DNA of 64,000 nucleotides from Catalinimonas alkaloidigena (lineage in GTDB: Bacteria; Bacteroidota; Bacteroidia; Cytophagales; Cyclobacteriaceae), in assembly GCF_029504655.1 (NCBI RefSeq), contig NZ_JAQFIL010000001.1, forward strand, positions 997,001 to 1,061,000. Direction: 5' to 3'. Below are positions 45,170 through 62,379 of the stretch, one piece after another; position 1 is the stretch's first letter, and each line of letters starts with the position of its first letter. The notes under the pieces were generated by a model, which worked only from the letters and a program-made list of their open reading frames with translations, did no database searches and was not told the DNA's origin. Made by a program: the position numbers and the translations under genes.

Positions 45170-46048
45170 TTACTTCCCCAGCATAGGAAAAAGCTGCCTG
45201 ATCATAGCTTCGTTGGGTTGGGTGCCGTATTCACAGACCTCAAAAGCTTCAGCATGTTTTACCTTCTCTGCTCTTTCCTGCCCATACCAACGTACCAATG
45301 CTTTCCGCATGCTGGGCGTAATTCTGGTAGTACGAGATGCCTTTAGCCACGCCTTACGCTGTGCCGGATCATCAGGCACTTCCTGACGGCCATAAATCCA
45401 GGGCAGCCACTCATAAAATTGTGACTTATGGGCATCCAATGCGTTGATCTTCTGGTCAAACACATCATCTATCGCCACAACGATGTCCGGCTGAAAGGGG
45501 TAAGGTTTGTCAAAGCCATCCTGTAAGTACATAAAGACCGGGTTTTTCTCCAAAGGAGGTGTATCGGGGCAGATATTAGGTACTGTGACCATAAAGGCAG
45601 CGTCTTGCACTAGTACGCCAGTATAGCGGTGGTCAGGGTGATAGTCATTGGTCCGATGAGAGATCACCAGGTCGGCATCCCATTTTCTGATTTCGCGAAT
45701 GATCTGCTTACGTACATCCAGGCTGGGCACCAGTTCTCCATCATGGTTATCCAGTACCACATAAGCATCAATATCCATACGTTTGGCCGATTCGCGGGCT
45801 TCCTGCATCCGACGGATAGCCAAAGCTCCCCCCCCCTCGTTCTGGTGGCCGGCGTCCCCATTGGTAACGGCAACAAACTTCACTTCATGGCCCATTTTGG
45901 CCCATAATATGGCAGTGCCTCCCGCTTTGATATCCGCATCGTCGGGATGGCCTCCGATCACTACCACTCTTAGGATTTCGGATTGGGCTTGTACGAATAA
46001 GGTTGTCGAGATAAGAAGTAATAAGGCTATTGAAATATTTTTGAGCAT
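45170..46048 (-). CDS. Secreted PIG-L/LmbE-family deacetylase
   Basis: This 292-residue zinc-dependent N-acetylglucosaminyl-deacetylase-type protein has a signal peptide (ending in FVQAQ). The hallmark VVVIGGHPDDADIKAGGTA (zinc His, Asp, Asp) and the later zinc His in HRTNDYHPDHRYTG are both present. Substrates in this family range from GlcNAc-inositols to lincosamide intermediates; none can be assigned. It faces the periplasm. Its neighbours on the same strand are ribokinase and the ManD-like protein, suggesting sugar-derivative metabolism in loose grouping. Confidence 0.86.
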   Translation of the reverse strand: MLKNISIALLLLISTTLFVQAQSEILRVVVIGGHPDDADIKAGGTAILWAKMGHEVKFVAVTNGDAGHQNEGGGALAIRRMQEARESAKRMDIDAYVVLDNHDGELVPSLDVRKQIIREIRKWDADLVISHRTNDYHPDHRYTGVLVQDAAFMVTVPNICPDTPPLEKNPVFMYLQDGFDKPYPFQPDIVVAIDDVFDQKINALDAHKSQFYEWLPWIYGRQEVPDDPAQRKAWLKASRTTRITPSMRKALVRWYGQERAEKVKHAEAFEVCEYGTQPNEAMIRQLFPMLGK

Positions 46049-46143
46049 AGGTAATTTATATTAATGTGATAAAGATAATATTTAATGGTGAATGATTAAT
46101 GAGGTTTACCATTTGTCATCAATCTTTCCTTATCCATCATTGG

Positions 46144-47070
46144 TTAAAACTCATATTGGTCAAGAAAGGCTTTGATTTCCAGCTGAGTGGGTGCCGAAGG
46201 TTGTGCCCCCAGCTTGGTCGTAGACAGGGCTGCAGCGGCATTGGCATACTTGATCGCTTCGGCTAACTTCTTGTTTTCTACGAGTTGAGAGGCCAGCACC
46301 CCACAAAATACATCTCCGGCAGCAGTAGTATCTACCGGCTTCACCGGATAGGCTTCTATCATCTTTTGCTCTCTTTTGGTCATGTAAAAGACCCCACGGG
46401 AGCCCAGGGTGATGACGATCATTTCTGGCCCCATCTCCAGCAGTTTTTTAGCGGCTGCTGTTACCTGCTCTGGTGTTTCTACGGCTAATCCGCTGATCAT
46501 AGCGGCTTCAGTCTCATTGACTGTCAGGTTGTAGAGCGGCTTCAGATGCTTTCTTTCCAAAGGCAGCGCAGGCGCAGGGTTAAGCATTACCTTTTTTCCC
46601 AGGCTGGCCGCCAGATCAATGATATATTCTACTGTTTCAAATGGTATTTCCAGTTGCAGCAGTATAAGCTCAGCAGCTGACAATAGTATTCTGCATTCGT
46701 CAATATAAGCAGGGCTCAGCTTATAATTAGCGCCGGGGGCTACGGCTATGCTGTTTTCTCCCTGCTGGTCTACCCAGATCAGTGCGGTGCCGGTAGGCGT
46801 GTTTTTGTTCTCCAGTATATAGTCGGTATTGATGCCACTATGCTTAAAATCCTGTATCATACTTTTCCCGAAGGCATCGTCACCGAGGGAAGAAATAAAG
46901 CTGACTTCCGCACCTGCCCGTGCTGCTGCCACTGCCTGATTGGCTCCCTTACCTCCATGTGCCTGGCTAAACTCGGCATCGCCTACAGTTTCTCCCGGCT
47001 TAGGCAGGTGACTGACTTTGGCAATTAAATCAATGTTAGAACTGCCGACTACGACAACTTGCTTGCCCAT
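46144..47070 (-). CDS. rbsK: Ribokinase
   Basis: This 308-residue PfkB-family sugar kinase has the ribokinase signatures [16 protein letters not shown] (residues about 39-54) and [14 protein letters not shown] (anion hole and catalytic Asp, about 248-261). [14 protein letters not shown] and VNETEA are also family-typical. It phosphorylates ribose to ribose 5-phosphate in the cytoplasm, though related sugars (deoxyribose) are possible. No ribose transporter or RbsD is adjacent. It is divergent from the MATE gene. Confidence 0.9.
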
Positions 47071-47164
47071 GCTATTTCATTTTTAGGTTGTGAGATGGTA
47101 GCAAATTAAGAAAATCACTTCAATCATTTAGTCCATTCGTGAGTTTATTGCTTAATTGCATGCC

Positions 47165-48511
47165 ATGTCAGAAGTATTGCAGGGAAATATTGCCACTTAT
47201 ATCCTCAAGCAGTCGGGAGTTTTACTCTTGGGAGTACTGATGATGGCTTCGTTTATGCTGGTAGATGTATATTTTATCAGTCAGTTAGGAAGTGATGCGC
47301 TTACTGCCATTAGTTATGCAACACCTGTCATGACTTTACTGGTGAGTATGCTGCTGGGGGTAGGCGCAGGAATGGTGGTAGTGGTTTCTAATGCAGTGGG
47401 AAGAAATAAAGCCAATGCCCTGCATTCATTAATCATCAGCTGTTTGACCTTTGCGCTCAGCTTTGGCTTGTTGCTGTGGGGTGTGCTTGTCTTGGGAGAT
47501 CGCTTACTTTTTGTACAATTAGGTGCCAGAAAAGAAGTGCTCAGACTGCTATTAGCGTATTTTGAGGTACTGATCCCCGGCATGTTTTTCCTTTGCCTGT
47601 TGGTCGCTGTAACCAGCCTTGCCCGCGCCTTGGGTAACCATAAGCTGCTAACCTATACCATGCTGGTATTGGTAGCCATCAATGCCCTGCTGGACCCCTT
47701 GTTAATTTTTGGTTTTCTGGGTTTTCCCAGGCTGGGAATAGCCGGTGCCGCATGGGCTACCAGTATTGCGGTCTTTATCAGTATGTGGCTGCCAGTACCT
47801 TATTTGTGGAAATCACTAAGAGAAGGCAATAACATAGCCTGGAACAAGATACGTAGTTTTCGCTGGAGGCCTATTGTAGTCATGGCTTTTCCTATTGCCC
47901 TTACCAATATTATGGTGCCGCTGGGTAATACACTCTTTGTCAAGCTGCTGAGTCATTTTGGTAATGCGGCAGTATCTGCTTATGGTGCAGGCTCAAGGAT
48001 AGATATGCTGGTGGTACTCTCATTTACCTCATTAACGGCAGTGCTGGCTCCTTTTATTGGGCAGAACCTGGGCGCTGAAAAGACGCAGAGAGCCCATAAG
48101 GGTTTGCAGTATGGTATCACTTACGCTTTTATGCTTGGCATAATTGCCGCAGGGCTTATTGGTCTTTTTAAAGAGGACATCAGTGGGGTTTTTGCTACTA
48201 ATCCTGCTACTTTCAGCGCATTAAATAACTATCTGGCTATTGTTCCCTGGGGGTATGCCGTCAATGGATTTGTCATGATTAGTCTGACAGTGCTCAATGT
48301 TTATCAGCGTCCCTGGTGGGCTACAGCTTTAGGCTTGAGCCATTTGTTTTTATTTTATTTACCCATAGCTTATGCGGCAGTACTGATGGATAGCTTTGAT
48401 CTTGTGCTTGCTGCCTATCCCGTATCCCATGTGTTGGCTACAATAGTATTATATGTTCTTGTCAATAAAGTGAGCGCAGTCAAAATGTTAGAGGTAGAAG
48501 TTTCCGGGTAA
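47165..48511 (+). CDS. MATE-family efflux transporter
   Basis: This inner-membrane antiporter has about 448 residues and 12 predicted helices. The two halves repeat (FMLVDVYFISQLGSDALTAISYATPV; ALTNIMVPLGNTLFVKLLSHFGNAAVSAYGAGSRID). The ATG at 47165 is preferred over an upstream TTG. It exports cationic or small organic compounds with Na+ or H+. It is followed after 104 bases, on the same strand, by the GTP cyclohydrolase II gene and its cluster, so it could export that pathway's product; the link is only positional. Confidence 0.88.
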   Translation: MSEVLQGNIATYILKQSGVLLLGVLMMASFMLVDVYFISQLGSDALTAISYATPVMTLLVSMLLGVGAGMVVVVSNAVGRNKANALHSLIISCLTFALSFGLLLWGVLVLGDRLLFVQLGARKEVLRLLLAYFEVLIPGMFFLCLLVAVTSLARALGNHKLLTYTMLVLVAINALLDPLLIFGFLGFPRLGIAGAAWATSIAVFISMWLPVPYLWKSLREGNNIAWNKIRSFRWRPIVVMAFPIALTNIMVPLGNTLFVKLLSHFGNAAVSAYGAGSRIDMLVVLSFTSLTAVLAPFIGQNLGAEKTQRAHKGLQYGITYAFMLGIIAAGLIGLFKEDISGVFATNPATFSALNNYLAIVPWGYAVNGFVMISLTVLNVYQRPWWATALGLSHLFLFYLPIAYAAVLMDSFDLVLAAYPVSHVLATIVLYVLVNKVSAVKMLEVEVSG

Positions 48512-48615
48512 AGGTATTTAATGTATTTTGGTGAACTTTATGTTCAATATTTGTTAAAATTAAATCATTTGTACTTCTACAGATGTAGTAAGCCCTTGAT
48601 GAGCTGAGAATCCTT

Positions 48616-49218
48616 ATGACACATAAATTAATAAGACAAGCTGAGACAAATCTACCGACGCGTTTTGGTACTTTCAAAATGATTGGATATGCTGAAGAAT
48701 CAGATAACCCCATGCCTCACCTGGCAATGGTGAGCACGCAAACAGATCTGACAAAGCCTGTCTTGGTACGCATCCATTCTGAGTGTATGACAGGAGACGT
48801 ATTTGGTTCTTTACGTTGTGATTGCGGTGAACAGCTGGATCAGTCCATGATGATGACCGGTAAAGACGGTGGGGTAGTGATCTACCTCAGGCAGGAAGGG
48901 CGTGGTATTGGGCTGATCAATAAAATGAAAGCCTACAATCTACAGGATCAGGGGCTTAATACTGCTGAAGCCAATGTGCATCTGGGTTTTGAGATAGATG
49001 AAAGAGACTACAGCATCGCTATTGAAATTTTAAGGGATCTGGGAGTAACTTCAGTGCTGCTCATGACCAACAATCCTGATAAGCTGGAAAGCCTCAAAAA
49101 GTCCGGAGTAGAAGTGTTAGGAAGAGTACCTATTGAGATAAAGCCTCATCAGGAAAATCTGGATTATTTACAGACCAAACAAAATCTTATGGGGCATCTT
49201 TTAGATATTAGCAAGTAA
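48616..49218 (+). CDS. ribA: GTP cyclohydrolase II
   Basis: This stand-alone 200-residue enzyme opens GTP to 2,5-diamino-6-(5-phosphoribosylamino)pyrimidin-4-one, formate and pyrophosphate. The zinc cysteines are Cys57 (HSECMTGD), Cys68 and Cys70 (LRCDCG). YLRQEGRGIGL keeps the active-site Tyr90, so the canonical reaction rather than the formamide-only variant is expected. The LLMTNNP block is present. It is not fused to RibB as in many Bacteroidota riboflavin operons. Genes for RibB, RibE and RibH are absent here. It heads a collinear set with a reductase, MDR dehydrogenase, PTPS homologue, glycosyltransferase and methyltransferase. Confidence 0.93.
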   Translation: MTHKLIRQAETNLPTRFGTFKMIGYAEESDNPMPHLAMVSTQTDLTKPVLVRIHSECMTGDVFGSLRCDCGEQLDQSMMMTGKDGGVVIYLRQEGRGIGLINKMKAYNLQDQGLNTAEANVHLGFEIDERDYSIAIEILRDLGVTSVLLMTNNPDKLESLKKSGVEVLGRVPIEIKPHQENLDYLQTKQNLMGHLLDISK

Positions 49219-49230
49219 GTTTAAAGTTGA

Positions 49231-49271
49231 AGGTTAAAGGTTGAAAGTTTATAAATCTTCAACCTTTAACT
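49231..49271. repeat. Intergenic hairpin between ribA and the reductase gene
   Basis: AGGTTAAAGGTTGAA (49231-49245) pairs with TTCAACCTTTAACT (49258-49271) around a 12-nt loop, with related AAGGTTGAA/CAACCTTTTA words on both sides. It lacks a T tract. It may be a mobile intergenic repeat or an mRNA stability element within the operon. Confidence 0.55.
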
Positions 49272-49296
49272 TTTAGCCTCCAACCTTTTACTTAAT

Positions 49297-50262
49297 ATGG
49301 AAATTGAAGACTATTGGTCAGGTTTACTTTTACTTTCTGAAGCCATCAAAAATTCAGAAGAAACGATTGACTATTGCTTTCTACAGCTGGGTGCTGAACC
49401 TGAGGTGCGTATCAATCATCTGCCGGTACCGGTTAAAGGGAGCTTGCTCCTGATGATAATCACTAACCCTGAATTGGAAATCATGCACGAACAAGCCAGT
49501 ATATTTAAGCTTGATGCCTTCTCTGTACAATTGGTTCAGAATATGGGCCTGCCAGATGATGTCCTTAATTTTATCAATGCCTATTTGCCTTACTGTTTTT
49601 TGTCATTACGAGCGAGGCAAATGCAAAGGGCCGTAGCTATTTCACATTTTGCTCAGACACTGGATGGAAAAATCGCTACACTGAGCGGGGACTCCAAGTG
49701 GATAGGTAATCAGGAGAACCTGACACATGCCCACCGGATGAGAGCGTTAACTGACAGTATTCTTATAGGAGCCAATACACTGAATTATGATCAGCCGGCG
49801 CTCACGGTAAGACTGGTAGAAGGTAAGAATCCTCAGCGAATTGTTATCTGCTCTTCAGATGCTGACTTCAGCAGCTTACAAAAACAATGTAAAGATGATG
49901 TCATCATTGTAGGTACCTGCGAAGATCCTCAGATTCCGCAAACTGAATTTTTTGCTTTCAAGGCTAATGCTAATGGCAGAGTAGATTGTCATGAACTGCT
50001 TCGTTTCCTTTTCAAACGTGGTATTTACTCTGTCTATATAGAAGGCGGAGCCACAACTACCTCCGGATTCGTAGAAGAGCGGGCTACAGATATCGTTCAG
50101 CTTCATATTTCACCCCTGATCTTCGGCTCGGGCATCAACAGCTTCAGCTTGCCGCAGATCGCTCAGGTAGAGGAAGCCATACATTTTGATAGCTTCTTTT
50201 TCCGTCCTATGGGTGATACTTTCATGTTCGTAGGAGCAATGAATATCCCAAAACATGGATAA
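49297..50262 (+). CDS. RibD C-terminal-type pyrimidine reductase without a deaminase domain
   Basis: This 321-residue protein has no recognisable domain in residues 1-108; the HAE and PCxxxG zinc motifs of the RibD deaminase are absent. A dihydrofolate-reductase-like RibD_C domain follows: ISHFAQTLDGKIAT, SKWIGNQEN, DSILIGANTLNYDQPALTVR, and YIEGGATTTSGFVEE. It should reduce the ribosylamino side chain of the GTP cyclohydrolase II product or a derivative with NADPH. It lies 78 bases after ribA and overlaps the next gene by 8 bases. The lone reductase, as in archaeal/fungal routes, suggests a pathway other than bacterial riboflavin synthesis. Confidence 0.85.
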   Translation: MEIEDYWSGLLLLSEAIKNSEETIDYCFLQLGAEPEVRINHLPVPVKGSLLLMIITNPELEIMHEQASIFKLDAFSVQLVQNMGLPDDVLNFINAYLPYCFLSLRARQMQRAVAISHFAQTLDGKIATLSGDSKWIGNQENLTHAHRMRALTDSILIGANTLNYDQPALTVRLVEGKNPQRIVICSSDADFSSLQKQCKDDVIIVGTCEDPQIPQTEFFAFKANANGRVDCHELLRFLFKRGIYSVYIEGGATTTSGFVEERATDIVQLHISPLIFGSGINSFSLPQIAQVEEAIHFDSFFFRPMGDTFMFVGAMNIPKHG

Positions 50263-51274
50263 GCCCAGCTTGGATAAGCCCAGCTTGGATAAGCCCAGCT
50301 TGGATAAGCCCAGCTTGGATAAGCCCAGCTCGCTATGGCACATCGCTGCTGACCAATCTGTTATTAAGAAGTCAGAATCAATTCCCGATAAGTCTGAATG
50401 TGTGATCAAAAGTCTTTACAGCCTTATAAGTACCGGAACGGAACGCCTGGTGGCCAGTGGGAAAGTACCAGTGGGTTTGCAGGAACATATGCAGGTGCCC
50501 TATATGGAAGGTAACTTTGGTTTACCGCTTAAATATGGATATTCACTGGTGGGCGAAGTTGTGGAAGGAACAGCTGAATTACAGGGCAAGACTGTGCATC
50601 TCATGCATCCTCACCAGGACGTATGTTACGTAAAGGCTGCTGATCTGTGTATTGTTCCTTCTGACATTCCGCCTGTACGTGCTACCCTGGCCAGTAATAT
50701 GGAAACGGCACTTAATGCAGTCTGGGACTCTGAAGTAAGCATAGGGGATAAGGTGCTACTGGTGGGCTTTGGCATCATCGGTTCACTCACGGCAAGTCTG
50801 TTAAAGGACATCCCGGGTGTTGAGCTATCTGTTTTTGATAAAAATCAGCAGAGATGTGAAATGGCAGAGACGATGGGGTTTCGTGTGGCAGATGCTTTCC
50901 AGCCTTATGATATCGCTTTTCATTGCAGTGGTAGTGGAGAAGGTCTGCAGCTTTGTATTGATCAGGTGGGCAAAGAAGGAAAAGTCATAGAACTGAGCTG
51001 GTATGGTGAGCAGGAGGTCAGGCTTCAACTGGGGAAAAGCTTTCATTATCAACGTAAACAGATTATCAGCTCGCAGGTTTCTCAGATTCCTGTGAAGAAA
51101 CAACATCGCTGGGATTATCAGAGGCGTAAAGCGGTAGTCATGGAATTACTAAAGAATTCCGAATATGATCAATATATTGGGGCTGTCATAGCTTTTGAAA
51201 AAGCTCCTGAGCTATTTGACAAATTAAAAAAAGGTGAACTCAGCGAACTAAGCTGGGCCATTGATTATACATAG
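50255..51274 (+). CDS. MDR-family dehydrogenase with an N-terminal repeat
   Basis: This 339-residue zinc-type alcohol dehydrogenase-like protein overlaps the reductase gene by 8 bases. Residues 2-26 are five copies of DKPSL (the last followed directly by SLW), encoded by a perfect 15-bp tandem repeat. The conserved part starts near 45 (YSLISTGTERLVASG) with LPLKYGYSLVGEV, NMETALNAVWDS and the nucleotide loop VGFGIIGSLTASLLKD. The arrangement resembles the BchC/sorbitol-dehydrogenase-like branch. Without the repeat the protein is normal in length. An oxidation or reduction of a side-chain hydroxyl in the pterin-like pathway is inferred from context. Confidence 0.78.
   Translation: MDKPSLDKPSLDKPSLDKPSLDKPSSLWHIAADQSVIKKSESIPDKSECVIKSLYSLISTGTERLVASGKVPVGLQEHMQVPYMEGNFGLPLKYGYSLVGEVVEGTAELQGKTVHLMHPHQDVCYVKAADLCIVPSDIPPVRATLASNMETALNAVWDSEVSIGDKVLLVGFGIIGSLTASLLKDIPGVELSVFDKNQQRCEMAETMGFRVADAFQPYDIAFHCSGSGEGLQLCIDQVGKEGKVIELSWYGEQEVRLQLGKSFHYQRKQIISSQVSQIPVKKQHRWDYQRRKAVVMELLKNSEYDQYIGAVIAFEKAPELFDKLKKGELSELSWAIDYT
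50256..50330 (+). repeat. 15-bp tandem repeat, five perfect copies, at a gene start
   Basis: TGGATAAGCCCAGCT is repeated five times (50256-50270, 50271-50285, 50286-50300, 50301-50315, 50316-50330). It begins inside the overlap of two genes: the first copy supplies the TAA stop of the reductase gene, and all copies code for DKPSL units of the dehydrogenase. Copy changes keep the reading frame. Confidence 0.97.
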
Positions 51275-51342
51275 CTTATCATCAGCTGAACTCTTTTTTA
51301 CGAATATAGAACAACTTTTAACTCATAACTTTTAATTTACTC

Positions 51343-51723
51343 ATGTACACTGTCACGATTCGCGACCATATGATGATTGCCCATTCTCTACCTTCCAAAG
51401 CCTTTGGGCCTGCCCAGAATCTGCATGGAGCTACCTATGTGGTTGATGCTGAGTTTAAATCTGCGAAACTTGATGAAAACAATATTGTGATAGATATAGA
51501 TATAGCCACTAAAAAGTTACAAAAAGCTTTGGAGCCTCTGAAATATCAAAATCTTGATGAGTTGCCTCAGTTTCAGGGGAAGCTGACCACTACTGAGTTT
51601 CTGGCAAAGTACGTACATGAAGTAATTAGTAGTGAGATCAGAGATAGTTTCAAGGGTAGCCTTAAAATTACACTGGGAGAATCTCATGTAGCATGGGCAG
51701 CTTATGAGGGAGAAGTTGTTTAA
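51343..51723 (+). CDS. Divergent 6-pyruvoyl-tetrahydropterin synthase/QueD homologue lacking cysteine
   Basis: This 126-residue protein has the T-fold of PTPS. RDHMMIAHSL gives zinc ligand His14, and NLHGATY gives His28, but the third zinc histidine of the usual HGH is Ala30. The protein contains no Cys, so the catalytic Cys of PTPS and QueD is missing. The C-terminal ESHVAWAAYE (Glu113, His115) keeps the substrate-anchoring Glu. It therefore probably binds a pterin or pyrimidine but performs different chemistry. I recall actinobacterial homologues with the same HGAT pattern; this was not checked. It lies 68 bases after the dehydrogenase and 12 before the glycosyltransferase. Confidence 0.82.
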   Translation: MYTVTIRDHMMIAHSLPSKAFGPAQNLHGATYVVDAEFKSAKLDENNIVIDIDIATKKLQKALEPLKYQNLDELPQFQGKLTTTEFLAKYVHEVISSEIRDSFKGSLKITLGESHVAWAAYEGEVV

Positions 51724-51735
51724 GCCAATCTCGCT

Positions 51736-52770
51736 ATGGGTGAGCCTCAGCCTTTAAACCAAAGCCTCTATTTTGTGCTCCCTCATGACCGGCATTTGCC
51801 GTCCGGGGGTAATGTTTATAATGAACAGCTGATGGCGGCACTTCGAAGGTATGGTCAGGACGTGGAGATTATGGAATTTTCTCATTATCGTAAAGCGATA
51901 CTTCGTGACCAGGCAGGTTTTTACGCTGTTGACAGTCTTTTTGTAGAAGATATGAAGCCCTTACTGAATCATAATCCTCAGAGGGCTTTTTCTTTTTTTA
52001 TACTACATCACCTTCAAAGTCTCTTTCCTCCTGCTGACTTAGATGCAGAACAGTATTTTGAAACCTATGAAAAGGAAGTGCTCAACTTCTTCCAGGGCTT
52101 TCTGTTGACAAGCGAATACTCCAAAAAATATCTGTTGGACAGAGGAATAAAAGCTCCCCTAATGGTAGTGGAGCCCGCATTAAGTTCATCAGTACAGCCT
52201 GCTATTGCGCTGAATTACCCACTCAAAACCCTGATGGTCGCTAATGTAATAGAACGTAAAGGCATACTGGCTTTTCTACAAGCTTTATCTACGCAAGTGA
52301 AGGAAGAAGATGAGTTCAAATTACACATCATTGGTCGTACTGATATGGAGCCTGCTTATTATGAAGCTTGTCTGAAGTTAGTAGAGACATCTGAGCTAAG
52401 CAATAAGGTTTACTTTTTGGGAGAGATGAGCCATGAAAACACGCTGAAGCAGTATGCGCAACATCATCTGTTCATTTCCGCAGCCCGGATGGAGACTTTT
52501 GGAATGGCTATACAGGAAGCCAAAGCTTACGGTCTGCCACTTTTACTGTGTAAAGGAGGAAATACTGAGCAGCATTTGACAAAAAGGGGAGGGATGCTTT
52601 GTCCAAATATTTTCAAATTAGCCGGAAATTTCATAGAATTATGTAGGAATGATGCGCTGATGCGTGAATTATGGCAGTCAGCAAAAGCTGAAAAAAATAC
52701 TACTAATAGGTATACCTGGGATCAGGCAGCTGCTCATTTTTTAAAGTTATTTTCAGATTTTTACATCTAA
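51736..52770 (+). CDS. GT4-family glycosyltransferase
   Basis: This 344-residue GT-B glycosyltransferase has the GT4 C-terminal donor domain (VANVIERKGILAFLQAL, KLHIIGR, VYFLGEMSHENTLKQY). The ARMETFGMAIQEAKAYGLPLL motif holds the donor-binding Glu residues. The N-terminal domain starts with LPHDRHLPSGGNVYNEQL, the typical acceptor-side Gly-rich loop. It has no signal or membrane helix. Within the cluster it would add a sugar to the pterin-like product; donor and acceptor are unknown. It starts 12 bases after the PTPS-like gene and is 4 bases before the methyltransferase gene. Confidence 0.88.
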   Translation: MGEPQPLNQSLYFVLPHDRHLPSGGNVYNEQLMAALRRYGQDVEIMEFSHYRKAILRDQAGFYAVDSLFVEDMKPLLNHNPQRAFSFFILHHLQSLFPPADLDAEQYFETYEKEVLNFFQGFLLTSEYSKKYLLDRGIKAPLMVVEPALSSSVQPAIALNYPLKTLMVANVIERKGILAFLQALSTQVKEEDEFKLHIIGRTDMEPAYYEACLKLVETSELSNKVYFLGEMSHENTLKQYAQHHLFISAARMETFGMAIQEAKAYGLPLLLCKGGNTEQHLTKRGGMLCPNIFKLAGNFIELCRNDALMRELWQSAKAEKNTTNRYTWDQAAAHFLKLFSDFYI

Positions 52771-52774
52771 TACT

Positions 52775-53650
52775 ATGCATATCAACTACGACGATCCTAT
52801 TATGTGGCTGGACCATCGCTATGCATGTGATGCCGAAGCGCGAAACGCCAGTATTGAAAAGAAGTTTCTGGAGTTTTTTACCGAAAAAGAGGCCCTTACT
52901 ATTCTGGATGCAGGATGTGGTACGGGATCAAACTTTCAATATTATTTTGATAAACTCCCCAGTCAACAGGAGTGGATATTTCTGGACTGTGAAAAAAACC
53001 TGCTGGAAGCCTGCCGTTCCAAACTTCATGAATTTGCTAAAAAAAATAAATACCAATACAAAGAACAGAACGGCACTATTCGTATAAAAGCAGGTAAGAA
53101 GCAGGCCAACATCCGTACCGTTGATGGGGAGCTTGCAGAGGTTGAGCAACATACAGACCTTAAAGAAACAGATGTCATCACTGCCAACGCACTTTTTGAC
53201 CTTTTGAGTTATGATCAGTTTGATCATTTTGCCTGTAAGCTCTCTGCTTACAATGTTTGTCTGATGGCAACGCTCAATTATTACGAGACCTCTTTTCTCC
53301 CTTACTCCGAAGATGATGGCCGCTTTGTCCGGTATTTTCATACCCATATGACCCGTCCTCAAAAATTTGGTGCGGCTATGGGACCCAATTGTACCGAGGA
53401 GATGCTGGATCTGCTGGCTGAACATCAGATGATGATAGAGCAGGAGGGAAGTCAGTGGCATCTGAAGAGGTACGATACTACCATGCACCATTATCTGCTA
53501 CACTTTTTTGAGCATGCCGTTCGCGATCTTAGCCTAAGCGATACTGAAATTTCAGAACTGGAAGCCTGGCTGGAAAATAAAAAAAGAATGTCACAGGATC
53601 ATAAACTGGAGATCATTGTAGATCATAGTGATATTTTTGCTTTTCCCTGA
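52775..53650 (+). CDS. Class I SAM-dependent methyltransferase
   Basis: This 291-residue methyltransferase has motif I LDAGCGTGSN (45-54), an acidic strand end (FLDCEKNLL) and a VITANALFDLLSYDQF segment in the place of motif IV/post-I. The C-terminal half is rich in His and aromatic residues and not typical of small-molecule methyltransferases I can name. It starts 4 bases after the glycosyltransferase stop and ends the plus-strand operon. It converges with the CDP-alcohol phosphotransferase gene 3 bases on. The substrate is probably the product of the cluster. Confidence 0.85.
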   Translation: MHINYDDPIMWLDHRYACDAEARNASIEKKFLEFFTEKEALTILDAGCGTGSNFQYYFDKLPSQQEWIFLDCEKNLLEACRSKLHEFAKKNKYQYKEQNGTIRIKAGKKQANIRTVDGELAEVEQHTDLKETDVITANALFDLLSYDQFDHFACKLSAYNVCLMATLNYYETSFLPYSEDDGRFVRYFHTHMTRPQKFGAAMGPNCTEEMLDLLAEHQMMIEQEGSQWHLKRYDTTMHHYLLHFFEHAVRDLSLSDTEISELEAWLENKKRMSQDHKLEIIVDHSDIFAFP

Positions 53651-53653
53651 TGG

Positions 53654-54364
53654 CTAAGCCTGATAGCGGTTCTTCTTCAGCATTAGGTAAATATCTTTCA
53701 TGAAAGAATAAGCGAGCATCGTAGTGGCGAAGAGCATCCCGGCGGTATAGACAGGGCGGGGGAGCACAAAACAGCCCATGATGGTGCCCATAAACCACAT
53801 ACCGATAAACCTTCGCCGGTAAGATTTGCTGAGACTGATATTTTCAATGTTAAAAAGATAAAGGATAAGTACAAAAGCATATCGCATGAGCCCGGGTATG
53901 ATTACCCAGGCACCGGCAAGCGATTGTTCCATCAGAATGATACAAAAGGCCAATACAAAAAAAGCATCAGTCTCTTTGTCAAAAAAATCGCCGAATTCAG
54001 AAACTGTATTATGCTTTCGGGCAAAATAACCATCTAACCCATCTGCGATCAGAATCAAGATGCCCAGTACGAAAAAAGCAAGGGCAGGTAAATCATGCTG
54101 AAAGAATAGTAACAAAAGTATTCCAATTACTCGTGCAGCGGTGATTTGATTGGCTAGTCCTCCTGCTATTCCTAAGCTTTTCCAGAAAGGTCTGCCACCG
54201 TAGATAAAACTAGTGAAAAGCAGCATGCAAAGTACAGTAAATAAAACTACTGATTCCCAATAGAGAAAAAGAGCTACAAAAAGGCAGGCCGCAACAGCAA
54301 AGTATCGCGGCCATCGGCTGAAAAAACGATTGGTTAGAAAGTTTAAGCTAGAGTCTGCCTGCAT
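53654..54364 (-). CDS. CDP-alcohol phosphatidyltransferase-family membrane enzyme
   Basis: This 236-residue protein has six or so helices. It contains the complete family signature D111-G112-x2-A115-R116-x8-G125-x3-D129-x3-D133, which binds Mg2+ and the CDP-alcohol. It transfers a phospho-alcohol group to a second alcohol in the inner membrane, as in phospholipid synthesis. The N-terminal 60 residues add two helices. It faces the methyltransferase gene end to end with only 3 bases between. That suggests it belongs to the same functional set even though it is on the other strand. The actual alcohol substrates are unknown. Confidence 0.88.
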   Translation of the reverse strand: MQADSSLNFLTNRFFSRWPRYFAVAACLFVALFLYWESVVLFTVLCMLLFTSFIYGGRPFWKSLGIAGGLANQITAARVIGILLLLFFQHDLPALAFFVLGILILIADGLDGYFARKHNTVSEFGDFFDKETDAFFVLAFCIILMEQSLAGAWVIIPGLMRYAFVLILYLFNIENISLSKSYRRRFIGMWFMGTIMGCFVLPRPVYTAGMLFATTMLAYSFMKDIYLMLKKNRYQA

Positions 54365-54478
54365 ATGTGTTAAGTGTAAACAAACTTAACCAATCAGGCA
54401 AATAATTGTGTTGAATGGTTTCTTACTTTATATTTTTGCTCATACAGGTAGGTAAATACTATCTCTCTGTAAAAGTAC

Positions 54479-54534
54479 GGAACTAAGTTCCTCACTAGAG
54501 TACTGGGCCTGTTCCTGTGGCGGAACTTAGTTCC
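54479..54534. repeat. Paired palindromes downstream of the giant ATPase gene
   Basis: GGAACTAAGTTCC (54479-54491) and GGAACTTAGTTCC (54522-54534) are exact reverse complements 30 bases apart, and each arm is itself an almost perfect palindrome. On the minus strand the hairpin is followed by GTACTTTTAC, so it could end the ATPase transcript, but a protein-binding or repeat-element role is also possible. Confidence 0.65.
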
Positions 54535-54577
54535 ATAAATTTCCATACAAGATTTGCGAACTATTCACCGAGTTGTA

Positions 54578-57500
54578 CTACTGCTTTGACAAATACTCGG
54601 CAATTGCTTTTAGGCTTTGTGAAATGTCATCCATTTTGGCTACGGCATGACCCATGCCATTATCACCATAGCCTTTACTTTGCTGGTTTTTGAGGAAAAT
54701 CTTTTTGATCTCCTGCCAGCGTTGTACTTCTTCTTCAGAAATGCGCTTCGTCATTTCTTTGAATTTCAGCAAATTGGCTTCTGCACCAGTGGTGAGTGTC
54801 TGTGCTTCATTTTCGTAGTGTGACATGATCAGGGTGTGCAATTCTGAGTCGTTCATGATCGGCTGCACCTTCTCGGCAATTTTGTTCATATCACGATAAG
54901 AGCCCTGGAGCTTGAAGGGCGGTTCAGTACGATACGCATCCGCCTGAGCAGCAGAATGTATGTACTCCATATTGACTCGCAGTACCGTATCTCTGACTAG
55001 CAAAAGCTTTTTGAGTACAGCTACATACGCATTGACCTCTTCCGCAGCATGATTGGCTTCAAAGCTGATGTCTTCCCGACTGTCGCTTTCAGCAATTTTG
55101 ATCATGGCATGGATATCTTTCTGGCTTTTACTGGACAGTTTGTGCAAAACGGGATTGGCAGTCAGGCAGTTTTCCACATAACTCAGCTTAAAGTCTTCGG
55201 CTGCATCTCCGGTAATATCCCCCAGGTTGTAAATATCAGCCCGGTTGGAAAGCATATCCGGTATCTGAAATTTTTCACCACTTTCAGTATAAGGATTCCC
55301 TGCCATCACAACACAGACTTTCTTAGCCCGGAAATCATAGGTTTTGCTTCTGCCTTTATAGACACCTTCTATTTTGCGTTGCGCATCACAGAGAGAAATG
55401 AACTTCTGCAGAAACTCTGGATGACAATGCTGTATGTCGTCCAGGTAAATCATCACATTATCTCCCATTTCAAAAGCCAGATTAAGCTTGTGTAACTCTT
55501 CTCTGGCAGCCGCATTAGGCGCAGCCTCAGGGTCAACCGATGTCACAGCATGTCCGATGGCCGGTCCGTTGATTTTCATCAAAATGATACCCAAACGATT
55601 GGCGATGTATTCCATCAGCGTGGTCTTGCCATAACCTGGAGGAGAGATTAAAAGCAGCATGCCCATACGGTCAGTACGTTTGTTCTCTCCTGCGGCACCG
55701 ATCTGCTTGGCAAGGTTGGTCCCAATCAATGGAAAGTACACTTTATCAATCAGGCGGTTGCGTACAAAAGAACTCATCACCTTGGGTTTGAAAGATTCCA
55801 GTTTCAGCGCTTCTTCAAACTGATGGCTAAGTTGTTTCTTGAGCGTTTGATAATGAGTAAAGGCAGGAACATCTAGGGTGCTAAAGTTTTGCAGCTTTTT
55901 CATGAACCGGATGTAGTGCAGATGGTAATTTCCTTGCTCAATCAGGGGATGACTACCTTGCATTTCGCTCAATTCAGTTTCCAGGCTGGCACTTTGAGTT
56001 GCATAAGGATGCTTTCCTTCCGCAAACAGCAGATAGGCTGCCTCCTCCGCATAGATTTCAGCGTGCTTGCTGTTCTGGTTCCAGGAAAGTACCCATTTTC
56101 GGATCAACTCAAACTGGGTGTAGGGATGATCTTTCAGGCTTTTTACAGAATTACGATAGGCCTCCTGACTTTTGCTTCTTTCAAGGTGTTTGAGAAATGC
56201 TTCTTTCTGTGTAGCTGCTTCTTCTACGAAGGTAAACTCATCGTCACTCGCCAGTTCTTCAAACAAATAATGAGCAGCTTCCTCTGACAGACTTATGTCA
56301 AACAAGCGGATTTCTTGTATAAACTGGCTGAGTTCGTTAGCGATCAGGGCGATCAGCTCAGCGAAAGCGGAACTGTTGGGAAACACTTTCAAAATGGCAC
56401 CCGCCCCTTTTAGCTGATGGTTGATAAAATTCTTTTGCTCAGCTTTAAGATAGTAGTTCCAGCACAAGGCAGCACAGATGCGGGCAGGTGAGGCGTAGCG
56501 CAACAGTCCCGCCTGTTGGTGGATATTGAGCAAATTTTTGAGCATCAGGCTGGCATCCTGATCATGTATGCCTTTGACATAAGCTTCTTCATAGCGGGAA
56601 GTCATGAACTGTTGCACATGGACTTTCAGCTCATCATCAGAAAAAGCAGTGAGTTCGGGGAGAGAAAGCGTCTTCCTTTCCTGGGCTGCTTTGAAAATCT
56701 GATATGCCAGATATTCTCCCCGGTACACGCTTTCATTCTCCGATACTAGCGATTGTTCCCAGTAGGGACGGTAACTCAGTAGCTCTTTATTCTCAACTGG
56801 CTCATAAAAATTGGTGCCGGTAAGATGGTAAAATAACTTTTCATTTTTGATCAAAGTGGTCAGTGCCAGGCTGGAAGTGGTGACCAGAAAAGTATGGTTG
56901 CCAAAACGAATGGTATTACCACCTTCGGCAAAAATCTCCGAACGATCACGAATCTGCCGGATGGTATCTTCTTTCAAGCCTTTGAGTTTACTCTGAATAT
57001 CCTCTGCCTTGGTGGTATCTTCCAGGGCTTTAAGTTCTTCAATGAGACTGTTCACTTTACCCACCATCAGGTCAGAAGCAAAGTAACCGTTCAATTCATT
57101 GACTGAGCCGATATTTTGTGCCCGATTGGCAATGGCTTTCAAAATGCGCTCAGCGGATTGGGCCAGGGCATTGGCTCTTTTGTTTCTGGCTTCTACCAAC
57201 TGTACTTTACGGGCTTCAAAGGCATTATAAAGTTCTTCTCTAAGGTCATTGATCTGCGCAATGAACTCTTCAAACTCAGCAAACTTCCCCTCCAACTCTT
57301 CCAACTGTACCATGAGTTTGTTGAGGTATTCATCACAGCGTGAAGGCGTGTCTGCGACATCCAGATAGCTAAGCATGGCCTGGCTGACCAATTTCTTTTG
57401 TGCCTCAAACTCTGCTTTACCTTCTACACTCAGCAGTGCTTTCTTTTTGCGTTTCTGGAAAGCTTTAACCTTGTTAAACTCAGCAAAGAGTACCGAAATA

Positions 57501-59458
57501 CGGTCAATGATCCGGGTGGTGAGTGTGGCATCTTCAATTTTCAGGTTGCTGACAATTTCCACCAGCATCTCCAGGTCGGTAGAGCTTTGCTGAATATCCT
57601 GCTCAATCTTGTCGGCATCTACTACTTTGTTGAGATTATCTATCGCCTGCTGTATTTGCTCAATTTTCTTCTGATAGGGAAGCAGGGCGTTTTCTTTGGA
57701 TAAAAAGCGGATGCAATCATGGGCTACTTTCTCAGTGATTTCCTGAAGTTGAATTTCATATGCTTTGACAACCTTGAGGTCAATAAAGCGCAAATCTGCC
57801 AGGGAAACCATTTCACCTCGTACTTGCCGTAGCGCATTCAGATGACTGACAAAATCATTGATATGCTCATAACGGGTGAGCTTTACTTTTTTAAGCAACT
57901 GCTCGGTAGCCCGGGCGGTTATTGTAAGCTGCTCATTCGTTTGTCTGCGGATGCTGATGACTTTTTCATATTCCTCAATAGCCGCCGCCGCCGTATCCCT
58001 GATCTGACTGATGGGCTCACCCACTTGAAAGGCATCGGCTTTGTCCAGCCAGTAATAGGCTTCCAGAATGGTAGAAGCCTGCTTCTTCAGGTCTACGTAG
58101 AGGTTTTCATAGTTTTCTCCTTTGTCTATCAGCTTGATCAGCAACTGGCTTTCGGCCATCAGGCGGACAATATCTTTGTTACCTACTTTGTAGAGGTAGG
58201 AATCGTTTTGCTGAGCAATGGCGAAATCCGGTGCTACAAAAGGAGTCTGCCAGATACGGATAGCATGGTGTTTTTTGGGGTCCTGATCCGCATTAAAATA
58301 GCACAGCTCACCATTGTCAAAGATGGCGTAGCCGTGGCAGATGATAGGCGTACTGATCTGTTGGGTAATTACGTTGTAAAACAACAGCTGGTAAATGCCC
58401 TGTGCCCGATTATAAAAAACGTACAGAAAATCTTCTCCATTGGGCGAAAGAATCTTTTTCTCAAAGCGCAGATTAGTTAGGTCATTTTCAAAGATCCTGA
58501 TGGCTCCGGTTTGGAGGTAGTAGCCATTAGGAAATAAAATTCCCTGATCATCTGGTAATAACAGGCAGGCATCTTCCAGCGCATCTATTCTTTTGACTTC
58601 TTGTAACTTGGCATTGAAGACCAGATAGCGGTACTCTTTTTCCTGATACGGTCTGATTTTGAGCAATACCAGATTCTCGAGTACAGCATAATAAATTTCT
58701 ACATCATCTAAAGTCTGGTCAGGGTCTTCCACTTCTTCGTGGTAGATACCCTGTCCACTATCGGTATTGTCTTCTACTTTGATGGTAAGATCGCCATGCA
58801 GGGTTTCCACAAACACTTTATCCTCAATGGAAATATGGGGGAATTTCCCTTTGCGGTGGGCATCCCGGGAAACGCGTCGCCAGCGAAATTCATGCTGCTC
58901 CGCCGGTTTGATCTCCAACTCACTGCGATCATCCAGATACACCAGCTGCCTGCCTTGTATCTGCCACTTGAAAGCTTTAATATCATCCAGCCCCTTGCTG
59001 ATGCGGAATACCATGTAGAGGTAGGGACCTGATAATACAAAGCGAGTGAAAATGGTATCTTTGTAATACTTATACAGCTTCTGAAAGTCATCTGCAAAGC
59101 CTGAGTGATTAATCAAGTCATACCCCTGCTCCTGGAAGCTATGCTCATGATAACTGTAAATACTGAATACATCCGACAGTTCCACATGCGTTTTTAAACC
59201 CAGGTGGACATTATATCCGAAAATAAAGTTATCGCCCAAAGCTACCATATCGTGGGGAACACAATTATTAGCAGTATGTATTCGCTCGGTGGTGAGTAGG
59301 GTGGTTTCCAATGAGCCGAAAACTTCTTTTCGGGCTTCATTGAGCTGCTCCAGCCTTTTCTGAAGCTCGTTTTTGCTTTGGTTGAGCCGATTTTGCAGTA
59401 CTTCGTAAGCACCGTTTTCTATCTGGGCTTCTGCTGTAGTAGTTGTAGGGTTTTGCAT
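54578..59458 (-). CDS. Giant DUF3686-type AAA ATPase (annotated in relatives as DNA repair ATPase)
   Basis: This protein has about 1,626 residues, starting at the Met at 59458 (MQNPTTTTAEAQ). A longer reading to 59518 would begin inside a terminator hairpin. The N-terminal coiled coil (LQNRLNQSKNELQKRLEQL) leads to a long WD-like/beta region (about 80-450), further coiled coils (450-850) and a helical region. A C-terminal AAA+ module follows, with Walker A SPPGYGKTT near 1273, Walker B VMIYLDD near 1337, and sensor-like CVVMAGNPYT. It sits at the end of the YbjN-PspA-YqiJ-flotillin operon. A membrane-remodelling motor is as plausible as DNA repair; no nuclease or DNA-binding motif is seen. 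Confidence 0.82.
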   Translation of the reverse strand: MQNPTTTTAEAQIENGAYEVLQNRLNQSKNELQKRLEQLNEARKEVFGSLETTLLTTERIHTANNCVPHDMVALGDNFIFGYNVHLGLKTHVELSDVFSIYSYHEHSFQEQGYDLINHSGFADDFQKLYKYYKDTIFTRFVLSGPYLYMVFRISKGLDDIKAFKWQIQGRQLVYLDDRSELEIKPAEQHEFRWRRVSRDAHRKGKFPHISIEDKVFVETLHGDLTIKVEDNTDSGQGIYHEEVEDPDQTLDDVEIYYAVLENLVLLKIRPYQEKEYRYLVFNAKLQEVKRIDALEDACLLLPDDQGILFPNGYYLQTGAIRIFENDLTNLRFEKKILSPNGEDFLYVFYNRAQGIYQLLFYNVITQQISTPIICHGYAIFDNGELCYFNADQDPKKHHAIRIWQTPFVAPDFAIAQQNDSYLYKVGNKDIVRLMAESQLLIKLIDKGENYENLYVDLKKQASTILEAYYWLDKADAFQVGEPISQIRDTAAAAIEEYEKVISIRRQTNEQLTITARATEQLLKKVKLTRYEHINDFVSHLNALRQVRGEMVSLADLRFIDLKVVKAYEIQLQEITEKVAHDCIRFLSKENALLPYQKKIEQIQQAIDNLNKVVDADKIEQDIQQSSTDLEMLVEIVSNLKIEDATLTTRIIDRISVLFAEFNKVKAFQKRKKKALLSVEGKAEFEAQKKLVSQAMLSYLDVADTPSRCDEYLNKLMVQLEELEGKFAEFEEFIAQINDLREELYNAFEARKVQLVEARNKRANALAQSAERILKAIANRAQNIGSVNELNGYFASDLMVGKVNSLIEELKALEDTTKAEDIQSKLKGLKEDTIRQIRDRSEIFAEGGNTIRFGNHTFLVTTSSLALTTLIKNEKLFYHLTGTNFYEPVENKELLSYRPYWEQSLVSENESVYRGEYLAYQIFKAAQERKTLSLPELTAFSDDELKVHVQQFMTSRYEEAYVKGIHDQDASLMLKNLLNIHQQAGLLRYASPARICAALCWNYYLKAEQKNFINHQLKGAGAILKVFPNSSAFAELIALIANELSQFIQEIRLFDISLSEEAAHYLFEELASDDEFTFVEEAATQKEAFLKHLERSKSQEAYRNSVKSLKDHPYTQFELIRKWVLSWNQNSKHAEIYAEEAAYLLFAEGKHPYATQSASLETELSEMQGSHPLIEQGNYHLHYIRFMKKLQNFSTLDVPAFTHYQTLKKQLSHQFEEALKLESFKPKVMSSFVRNRLIDKVYFPLIGTNLAKQIGAAGENKRTDRMGMLLLISPPGYGKTTLMEYIANRLGIILMKINGPAIGHAVTSVDPEAAPNAAAREELHKLNLAFEMGDNVMIYLDDIQHCHPEFLQKFISLCDAQRKIEGVYKGRSKTYDFRAKKVCVVMAGNPYTESGEKFQIPDMLSNRADIYNLGDITGDAAEDFKLSYVENCLTANPVLHKLSSKSQKDIHAMIKIAESDSREDISFEANHAAEEVNAYVAVLKKLLLVRDTVLRVNMEYIHSAAQADAYRTEPPFKLQGSYRDMNKIAEKVQPIMNDSELHTLIMSHYENEAQTLTTGAEANLLKFKEMTKRISEEEVQRWQEIKKIFLKNQQSKGYGDNGMGHAVAKMDDISQSLKAIAEYLSKQ

Positions 59459-59492
59459 AACTGGAGCAGTGTTGGTGTACAGGTTAAAGGCT

Positions 59493-59536
59493 AAAAAAAG
59501 TAGAACGACTGATCTCATTTGAGCCTGTCGTTCTAC
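59493..59536 (-). terminator. Terminator/attenuator between flotillin and ATPase genes
   Basis: On the minus strand GTAGAACGAC (59536-59527) and GTCGTTCTAC (59509-59500) form a perfect 10-bp stem. It is followed by seven T (59499-59493). It sits in the 96-base gap after the flotillin gene and should reduce or regulate read-through into the ATPase gene. Confidence 0.82.
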
Positions 59537-59554
59537 TCACACTTCATTTATGGG

Positions 59555-61723: not shown

Positions 61724-61755
61724 GATGGTTCGTTTTTAGGGTGTTATGAATAGCG

Positions 61756-62379
61756 CTAAGCTATATATGGTTCTATGAGGTAGACATTACTATCTGGTAT
61801 GTATTCTAGTACGATGGCAGTATCTCCGCTAAACAAATTGACACCATCATCGGTAACGACATTCAATAATAGAGGGGCTCCGCTGGTGTTGATTCTGGCT
61901 TGTCCGGCTTTGATATTCGTTGCATTGGTCATCAGAGTACAGATTTTACCAATTTGCCTTTCCCCCTGGTCATAATTACTATCCAGATGACTGAAAAGCT
62001 TAACAAAAGGCTGGGTAGCAAATTTCGCGATAAACGCACTGACAATCAGTATGGGAACTAAGAGCACAAGTGACAACATGAAAGACTGATTTTCCAGATA
62101 GTAGTTAGTCATCACTGAGATAGCCCACATCGGGACGATCAGAAAGGTCATAAAAACCATGAAAGGTAGCTGGCCCAGGTTGAAAAAAGCCAACACATGG
62201 TTGAGCCAGGATACCGAAATTTCTCCATCAACGTCCGTCTCCATATCCACATCTATGTCAATGGAATCTACATCTATCGCTCCTAAAATCACTACGATCC
62301 AATAGACCAGCACAAAAATGAGCAGGGCAGTCGGGATAATGTTGGGTGCGGCGACAGCGGCGTTGAAAAGATCATTCAT
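61756..62379 (-). CDS. YqiJ/NfeD-like membrane protein with a C-terminal OB fold
   Basis: This 207-residue protein has three to four helices in the first 130 residues (LLIFVLVYWIVVILGAI, LPFMVFMTFLIVPMWAI, LSLVLLVPILIVSAFIA). A C-terminal OB-fold of the NfeD kind begins at GERQIGKICTLMTN and ends with IEPYIA. An acidic loop follows the first helix (DVDSIDIDVDMETDVDGEIS). NfeD-like proteins act together with flotillins. It lies 2 bases after the PspA stop and 32 before the flotillin gene. Confidence 0.85.
   Translation of the reverse strand: MNDLFNAAVAAPNIIPTALLIFVLVYWIVVILGAIDVDSIDIDVDMETDVDGEISVSWLNHVLAFFNLGQLPFMVFMTFLIVPMWAISVMTNYYLENQSFMLSLVLLVPILIVSAFIAKFATQPFVKLFSHLDSNYDQGERQIGKICTLMTNATNIKAGQARINTSGAPLLLNVVTDDGVNLFSGDTAIVLEYIPDSNVYLIEPYIA

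Follow-up and report, generated by a model that had tools for sequence, protein, structure and literature searches.

A widespread gene cluster with riboflavin-type front-end enzymes in Catalinimonas alkaloidigena and its predicted pterin product

Introduction

The closest described relative of the gene cluster analyzed here lies in the SCO6650–SCO6655 region of Streptomyces coelicolor. The structure of SCO6650 (3D7J) was deposited as that of an uncharacterized protein, and SCO6655, a GTP cyclohydrolase II paralogue, is reported to yield the formylated pyrimidine FAPy (Spoonamore 2006). The related cluster of seven genes studied here comes from Catalinimonas alkaloidigena (Bacteroidota) and occupies positions 48616–54364 of a 64,000-nucleotide stretch, called the window (contig NZ_JAQFIL010000001.1, 997,001 to 1,061,000), of a host genome of 7.92 Mb in three contigs. 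It encodes RibA, a RibD-type reductase (RED), a medium-chain dehydrogenase (MDR), a PTPS-like protein, a GT4 glycosyltransferase, a methyltransferase, and a CDP-alcohol transferase. The solved sequence nearest to its PTPS-like protein is SCO6650 (E = 1.3e-34, 122 bits, LHGAT motif common to both), which makes the cluster kin to the orphan cluster partly noted in Streptomyces.

The SCO6650-type cluster and the window share the dehydrogenase–PTPS–GT4–methyltransferase core on one strand and a PTPS-like protein that has the pterin-anchoring Glu without the catalytic Cys and the third zinc His. A plasmid of Streptomyces fungicidicus shows the same gene order and, close by, genes for a CDP-alcohol enzyme, a creatininase, and RibA. 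RED was not found in that plasmid stretch, and the plasmid RibA has Met at the switch position, where the window RibA has Tyr. Relatives are carried by Streptomyces and Microbacterium plasmids, in agreement with the actinobacterial gene sets that a preceding sequence-only reading of this DNA had mentioned.

More distant systems share single elements with the cluster. The PTPS subfamilies I–III of COG0720 (QueD, tetrahydrobiopterin (BH4) synthesis, folate bypass) have the Pfam family and the pterin-anchoring Glu in common with it; unlike them, the cluster proteins carry Ala or Glu in place of the catalytic Cys, and most have lost the third zinc His. In PTPS-III, too, Glu stands in for Cys. The pteridine glycosyltransferase pathway of cyanobacteria and Chlorobium resembles the cluster by analogy, combining a GTP-derived pterin with a glycosyltransferase, but those pathways start from FolE and PTPS and are not known to use RibA, RED, or MDR. 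No paper assigning a product to the cluster was found among the titles and abstract beginnings searched, subscription papers being mostly outside that search.

The kind of cluster has already been partly noted in Streptomyces; its breadth, the probable decay of the deaminase, the co-divergence of the genes, and the pathway logic are new here. We predict that a riboflavin front end is diverted into a pterin that is glycosylated, methylated, and probably attached to the envelope, a reading to which we assign a probability of about 0.38. That the product core is a 2-amino pyrimidine or pterin is probable.

Gene Content of the Cluster

The sequence-only reading had described six collinear genes and a convergent seventh. 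All seven frames are intact, and the Pfam assignments agree with the enzyme names given there (window coordinates, strand):

47156..48511, plus: MATE-family exporter, candidate exporter of the product (TIGR00797 above cut-off)
48616..49218, plus: RibA, GTP cyclohydrolase II (PF00925 GTP_cyclohydro2, 215 bits; TIGR00505 above cut-off)
49297..50262, plus: RED, RibD-type reductase, deaminase domain probably decayed (RibD_C, 120 bits, residues 115–290)
50255..51274, plus: MDR, medium-chain dehydrogenase of a zinc-free type, candidate for oxidation of the ribityl chain at C2' (ADH_zinc_N, 25 bits, below cut-off)
51343..51723, plus: PTPS-like T-fold protein (Pfam PTPS, 81 bits)
51736..52770, plus: GT4 glycosyltransferase (PF00534 Glycos_transf_1 / PF13692)
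52775..53650, plus: class I S-adenosylmethionine-dependent methyltransferase (PF13649 Methyltransf_25)
53654..54364, minus: CDP-alcohol phosphatidyltransferase, convergent (PF01066 CDP-OH_P_transf)

From RibA onward, the intergenic gaps are 78, -8, 68, 12, 4, and 3 bases.

Conservation of the Gene Set across Phyla

Loci were collected by scanning one genome per species with the dehydrogenase as the sole query, and the best 80 of the resulting 226 loci were kept, so that the per-family counts tilt toward the nearer kin of the window. Families were counted per locus, within at most 10 kb on each side and not by strict adjacency; the 92-locus totals used below include the window itself, and many of the contigs are cut. 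Among the best 80 loci, PTPS was found in 71, GT4 in 64, RED in 62, RibA in 41, the methyltransferase in 38, and the CDP-alcohol enzyme in 34. For the 39 loci flanked on each side by 6 kb or more, the corresponding numbers were 37, 35, 34, 24, 26, and 19. All seven families occurred together in 16 of the 92 loci, and the dehydrogenase–PTPS–GT4 order on one strand in 62, followed in 37 by this methyltransferase family. The GTP-derived gene set proposed from the sequence alone is therefore a conserved neighborhood that recurs across phyla, not a scatter of genes, as the 37 of 39 fully flanked dehydrogenase loci with PTPS demonstrate. The clustering exceeds chance, since the set reappears in unrelated genomes that were picked by the dehydrogenase alone; one of the three PTPS genes of the host would be expected within a given 20 kb with a chance of about 0.8%. 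Of 198 genomes of the host phylum, four, the host among them, gave a dehydrogenase match at E up to 1e-20.

The partners diverge together with the dehydrogenase. Mantel correlations of its distances with those of the other families reached 0.89 for the methyltransferase, 0.88 for RED, 0.82 for the CDP-alcohol enzyme, 0.74 for PTPS, 0.67 for GT4, and 0.66 for RibA, and for each pair none of 300 permutations was as high. Loci with dehydrogenase and PTPS came from Bacteroidota, Pseudomonadota, Chloroflexota, Planctomycetota, Fidelibacterota, Myxococcota, Zixiibacteriota, Thermodesulfobacteriota, Actinomycetota, and haloarchaea, some of these labels being those of metagenome bins and possibly mis-assigned. 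Three large groups were distinguished in the dehydrogenase tree (Bacteroidota type, Chloroflexota–haloarchaea type, and Proteobacteria–Actinobacteria type), in each of which a minority of loci bear other labels. Two genomes of the host phylum (G147 and G195) fell inside the Chloroflexota–haloarchaea group in both the RibA and the dehydrogenase trees, which suggests transfer. The carriers include chromosomes and plasmids, and a gene set kept together on both across many bacterial phyla must make something useful. Phage carriage was considered and rejected: viral contigs gave no confirmed relative of PTPS or the dehydrogenase, and three phage records matched PTPS weakly.

RibA and the Reductase

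The window RibA has the three zinc Cys, the catalytic Arg, and the Tyr of a GTP cyclohydrolase II, the Tyr aligning with E. coli Tyr105 (alignment numbering). The zinc Cys were present in all 48 scored cluster RibAs. At the switch position, Tyr was found in 46, Met in the Streptomyces locus L094 alone, and Leu in L052. Met at this residue is reported to have a role in FAPy formation (Spoonamore 2006); the window RibA is not of this type. The switch Met distinguishes branches; the core does not depend on it.

A quick tree, evaluated only with the SH-like approximate likelihood ratio test (SH-aLRT), was built from the 48 cluster RibAs and 18 others, leaving out 13 retrieved copies that were the cluster's own and 11 further matches without a locus. 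The cluster/other label changed four times on this tree, against a mean of 16.2 for shuffled labels. Forty-seven cluster RibAs shared one branch (support 83) with three non-cluster RibAs (L118, L119, and L122). These three come from the carriers G213, G209, and G205, whose dehydrogenase loci either have no RibA (L073, L062) or a divergent one (L052). The window RibA grouped with the cluster RibAs and apart from the other RibA of its genome. Three genomes of one family (L144, L146, and L147) encode a RibA in which Leu replaces the switch Tyr and is followed by an insert; the product of this type may differ from that of ordinary RibA. In eight loci of the Chloroflexota–haloarchaea branch, RibA and RED are fused.

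The reductase had been called deaminase-less. No deaminase family was detected in RED by Pfam even at E up to 10, and the deaminase signature was found in none of the 70 cluster REDs. The N-terminus of RED nevertheless probably represents the remains of a deaminase domain, because the RED model aligned with a whole RibD target over about 65 extra residues, from residue 6 on. The model was closest to reductases acting before deamination. Unlike the archaeal and fungal 2,5-diamino-6-ribosylaminopyrimidinone reductases (MjaRED, MthRED, Rib7), the window RED has this N-terminal remnant aligning with the RibD deaminase domain.

The Dehydrogenase and the PTPS-like Protein

The window MDR does not carry the catalytic zinc Cys and GHE His of zinc-dependent alcohol dehydrogenases. 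In a survey of 94 rows (the window counted twice, one row gapped), the zinc Cys was kept in one row and the GHE His was replaced by Tyr in 93. Profile matches, confined to the coenzyme domain, were led by butanediol, iditol-2, RspB, threonine, idonate-5, sorbitol, and xylitol dehydrogenases. In structural comparisons of the MDR model, iditol 2-dehydrogenase (Z = 30.8) and arabinitol 4-dehydrogenase (Z = 30.0) stood at the top, and TarJ was the Foldseek hit of rank 13. A perfect tandem repeat of five 15-bp units (50256–50330) covers the MDR start and the RED stop. The repeat is in-frame and possibly forms a length-variable MDR N-terminus or a coupling element; the MDR of the nearest relative, L011, begins without it.

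The PTPS-like protein was surveyed in 82 rows (the window counted twice) at positions taken from the comparison with 3D7J, with the residue roles commonly assigned to PTPS. In the window, the catalytic Cys and the third zinc His are both replaced by Ala, and both pterin-anchoring Glu are present; the protein does not have the combination of Cys (or Glu, as in III) with three zinc His that marks a QueD/PTPS enzyme. The description as Cys-less extends to the whole family, as none of the 82 rows has Cys at this position (Ala 67, Glu 15). The first zinc His was found in 82 rows, the second in 81, and the third in only 15 (Ala 64, other 3), whereas both pterin-anchoring Glu were present in all 82. 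The 15 rows with Glu for Cys are those keeping the third His, and 14 of them also keep the second; we take them to resemble the PTPS-III type. This second subtype (L008, L009, L076–L090) was seen only in the Chloroflexota–haloarchaea branch.

A role in queuosine or BH4 synthesis was rejected: two further PTPS genes are present in the host, one of them some 120 bases away from a FolE match, and the cluster protein is devoid of the catalytic residues. No QueC-, FolE-, or sepiapterin-reductase-type gene was noticed beside the cluster, where no dedicated search for these was made.

Candidate Decoration, Membrane, and Export Genes

The CDP-alcohol enzyme has an intact DxxDGxxAR(8)GxxxDxxxD motif at window protein residues 108–133, found in 37 of the 40 family members, the window included. 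Its family occurs in 40 of the 92 loci, in either orientation. The methyltransferase family is present in 49 and is often replaced by other methyltransferases in the Bacteroidota branch. Further partners, for each of which one representative was named by Pfam, vary between branches: LtaS-like sulfatase (25 of 92 loci), FkbM methyltransferase (21), LPG_synthase_TM (10), MdoH-like GT2 (8), sulfotransferase (8), cytochrome b561 (7), PEMT/ICMT-like (7), and creatininase (7). Of 51 flanked loci, 15 have both the CDP-alcohol enzyme and the sulfatase, 10 only the former, 4 only the latter, and 22 neither. Taken with GT4, the methyltransferase, and the CDP-alcohol enzyme, these branch-variable families point to an envelope product with a finish that differs by branch. 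The suggested membrane link through the CDP-alcohol enzyme is plausible in view of the frequencies of this enzyme, the sulfatase, and LPG_synthase_TM.

The MATE gene had been put forward as a possible exporter. It lies 104 bases upstream of RibA and belongs to a small subset of loci only (3 of 92): in L019 and L025, a MATE relative also precedes the cluster, separated from it by an FkbM gene.

Proposed Pathway

The re-use of riboflavin front-end enzymes without a deaminase predicts the product core. Homology and residues strongly indicate that RibA would convert GTP into 2,5-diamino-6-ribosylamino-4(3H)-pyrimidinone 5'-phosphate, and it is likewise strongly indicated that RED would reduce the ribosyl to a ribityl chain; the missing deaminase signature indicates that the 2-amino group should stay on. 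In the third step, proposed tentatively, the zinc-free MDR would oxidize the C2' hydroxyl of the ribityl chain, and the ketone would condense with the 5-amino group to give 7,8-dihydroneopterin 3'-phosphate. On chemical reasoning, this closure should produce a 7,8-dihydropterin with the erythro trihydroxypropyl chain of neopterin, the reduction and the oxidation together standing in for the Amadori rearrangement of GTP cyclohydrolase I. Oxidation at C2' with closure onto the 5-amino group would account for the RED–MDR pairing, the absence of a deaminase, and the pterin-binding T-fold protein that follows. The PTPS-like protein, which retains the anchor for a 2-amino-4-oxo-pterin and not the catalytic triad, may bind the product and aid ring closure or side-chain chemistry. 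From their families, GT4 and the methyltransferase would then decorate the pterin. The last step is the most conjectural: the CDP-alcohol transferase, found elsewhere with an LtaS-like protein of sulfatase fold, might join a phospho group or lipid to the pterin, and the MATE or LPG_synthase_TM proteins might carry the product across the membrane. If the dehydrogenase does close the pterin ring, the cluster adds another route leading from GTP to pterins; otherwise, a pyrimidine or ribityl-pterin metabolite of a new class is to be expected.

Several observations weigh against this pathway. The Z values of the MDR for polyol dehydrogenases are only 1–2 units above those for ordinary alcohol dehydrogenases, and the catalytic zinc ligands of the sorbitol type are missing. 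The zinc-less PTPS-like protein may only bind its ligand, its catalysis being a proposal. Of the 92 loci, many of them on cut contigs, 70 yielded RED and 48 RibA; three haloarchaeal loci hold part of the set with neither RibA nor RED found, and L007, from the same class as the host, has of the core only RibA and MDR on 19 kb. The distances of RibA and PTPS correlate at r = 0.41 only, and the cluster RibA of L045 sits outside the main cluster clade. FolE was found in 17 of the 20 cluster genomes, and the host has two copies, so a second dihydroneopterin route looks redundant there. Finally, the host has a 335-residue RibD-type protein (L100 1393–2400, G000; beside a PrmC-like gene named by eye) that also has no deaminase signature. 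Motif loss is hence not peculiar to the cluster here, a stand-alone deaminase may exist, and the argument from deaminase loss is weaker in this one genome. The signature was not found in any of the four host stretches scanned (the window and three others of 15–20 kb).

Alternative Products

The alternative that survives best is an N8-ribityl pterin, in which the chain stays on the nitrogen and 2,5-diamino-6-ribitylaminopyrimidinone is closed by an external carbonyl with the help of the PTPS-like protein. This 2-amino analogue of ribityl-lumazine would then be acted upon at its ribityl hydroxyls by the dehydrogenase and GT4. RibA and a RED devoid of the deaminase signature yield its precursor, the T-fold pocket retains the 2-amino-4-oxo anchor, and the free chain could serve the CDP-alcohol enzyme and GT4. 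The recurrent families included no gene recognized as one for a carbonyl partner, though lumazine synthase and 3,4-dihydroxy-2-butanone 4-phosphate (DHBP) synthase were not searched for there, and we regard this product as rather unlikely.

A pyrimidine glycoside resembling vicine of the faba bean is a more doubtful candidate: the opened and reduced pyrimidine would be glycosylated and methylated with no second ring, and the PTPS-like protein would only bind. Vicine synthesis is not known to need either a dehydrogenase or a PTPS-like protein. The loss of Cys and of one zinc ligand in most PTPS members fits such a product, as does the precedent of vicine itself, the synthesis of which is reported to be initiated by the riboflavin-type protein VC1 (PMC12202586). 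However, the dehydrogenase and the PTPS-like gene form a constant pair in the fully flanked loci, and the pterin-anchoring Glu is invariant.

More improbable still is a FAPy start in the Streptomyces and Acuticoccus branches, where RibA would stop at the formylated pyrimidine, a creatininase-family formamidase or another enzyme would continue, and the clusters would make more than one product. The Met of L094, the Leu of L052, and the creatininase genes in seven loci speak for it, together with the creatininase-family protein of S. meliloti, a proven FAPy formamidase (PMC9478397). A link between the switch residue and the creatininase gene was nevertheless rejected: of the six creatininase loci in which RibA was scored, five have Tyr and one has Met, the seventh having no RibA, so the two features do not go together.

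The neopterin-type pathway is also to be set against the riboflavin pathway of the host. Another RibA (in a 366-residue frame), lumazine synthase (RibH), and six further RibD_C matches, the 335-residue protein among them, are encoded elsewhere in the genome. The cluster RibA and reductase are therefore not its only copies, and the cluster is most likely not a riboflavin supply. The lack of riboflavin partners noted from the sequence was upheld: no RibB, RibE, RibH, or deaminase family was present among the ten proteins scanned at 45170–54364, RibB and RibE not being searched genome-wide, and no Rfam match, hence no flavin mononucleotide (FMN) riboswitch, was found at 46000–55000. Of 20 genomes with the dehydrogenase, all had RibA and 19 had RibH (20 of 21 with the host); in the remaining one, Thermanaerothrix daxensis, no RibH was found and the sole RibA found was that of the cluster. 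An extra, perhaps regulated, riboflavin supply is thus highly improbable, even though RibA and RED are riboflavin enzymes by family and the two signature-free reductases of the host could be interchangeable, given these other copies and the tree grouping of the cluster RibAs, and we are nearly certain that the cluster does not serve riboflavin synthesis.

A Folate Hint in Acuticoccus

Besides its two FolE genes, the host has two further PTPS genes and HPPK among its pterin-related genes. In Acuticoccus kalidii (G205), which carries the cluster, FolK adjoins FolP (HPPK and Pterin_bind, L143 6337–7676), and no FolE or FolE2 match was found in the genome. FolE2 was searched for in the three cluster genomes without FolE and, within the A. 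kalidii family, in G205 only. In that family, FolE was found in two of ten genomes and the dehydrogenase in all ten, G205 included. All four neighborhoods retrieved for it (G205, G218, G219, and G226) contain the dehydrogenase, PTPS, GT4, methyltransferase, RED, and RibA. The folate link in Acuticoccus is suggestive only. One might speculate that a dihydroneopterin route independent of GTP cyclohydrolase I, in which RibA is followed by reduction through a deaminase-dead RibD and then oxidation through a polyol-type dehydrogenase, replaces FolE and feeds folate in Acuticoccus-like lineages, with an envelope-attached pterin glycoside made elsewhere; we consider this extension unlikely.

Neighboring Genes

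Downstream of the cluster (54578–62379) lie genes for a 1646-residue protein with DUF3686, DUF7902, and AAA_5 and then for a 722-residue (coiled-coil-like) and a 207-residue (membrane-like) protein without Pfam match. In L007, RibA and MDR adjoin a sulfotransferase and an FkbM methyltransferase. On the upstream side of the window cluster, a ribokinase-family gene (46144–47070) is directed away from it; its homologue in L011 is placed immediately upstream of RibA, and in L097 a PfkB gene adjoins RED.

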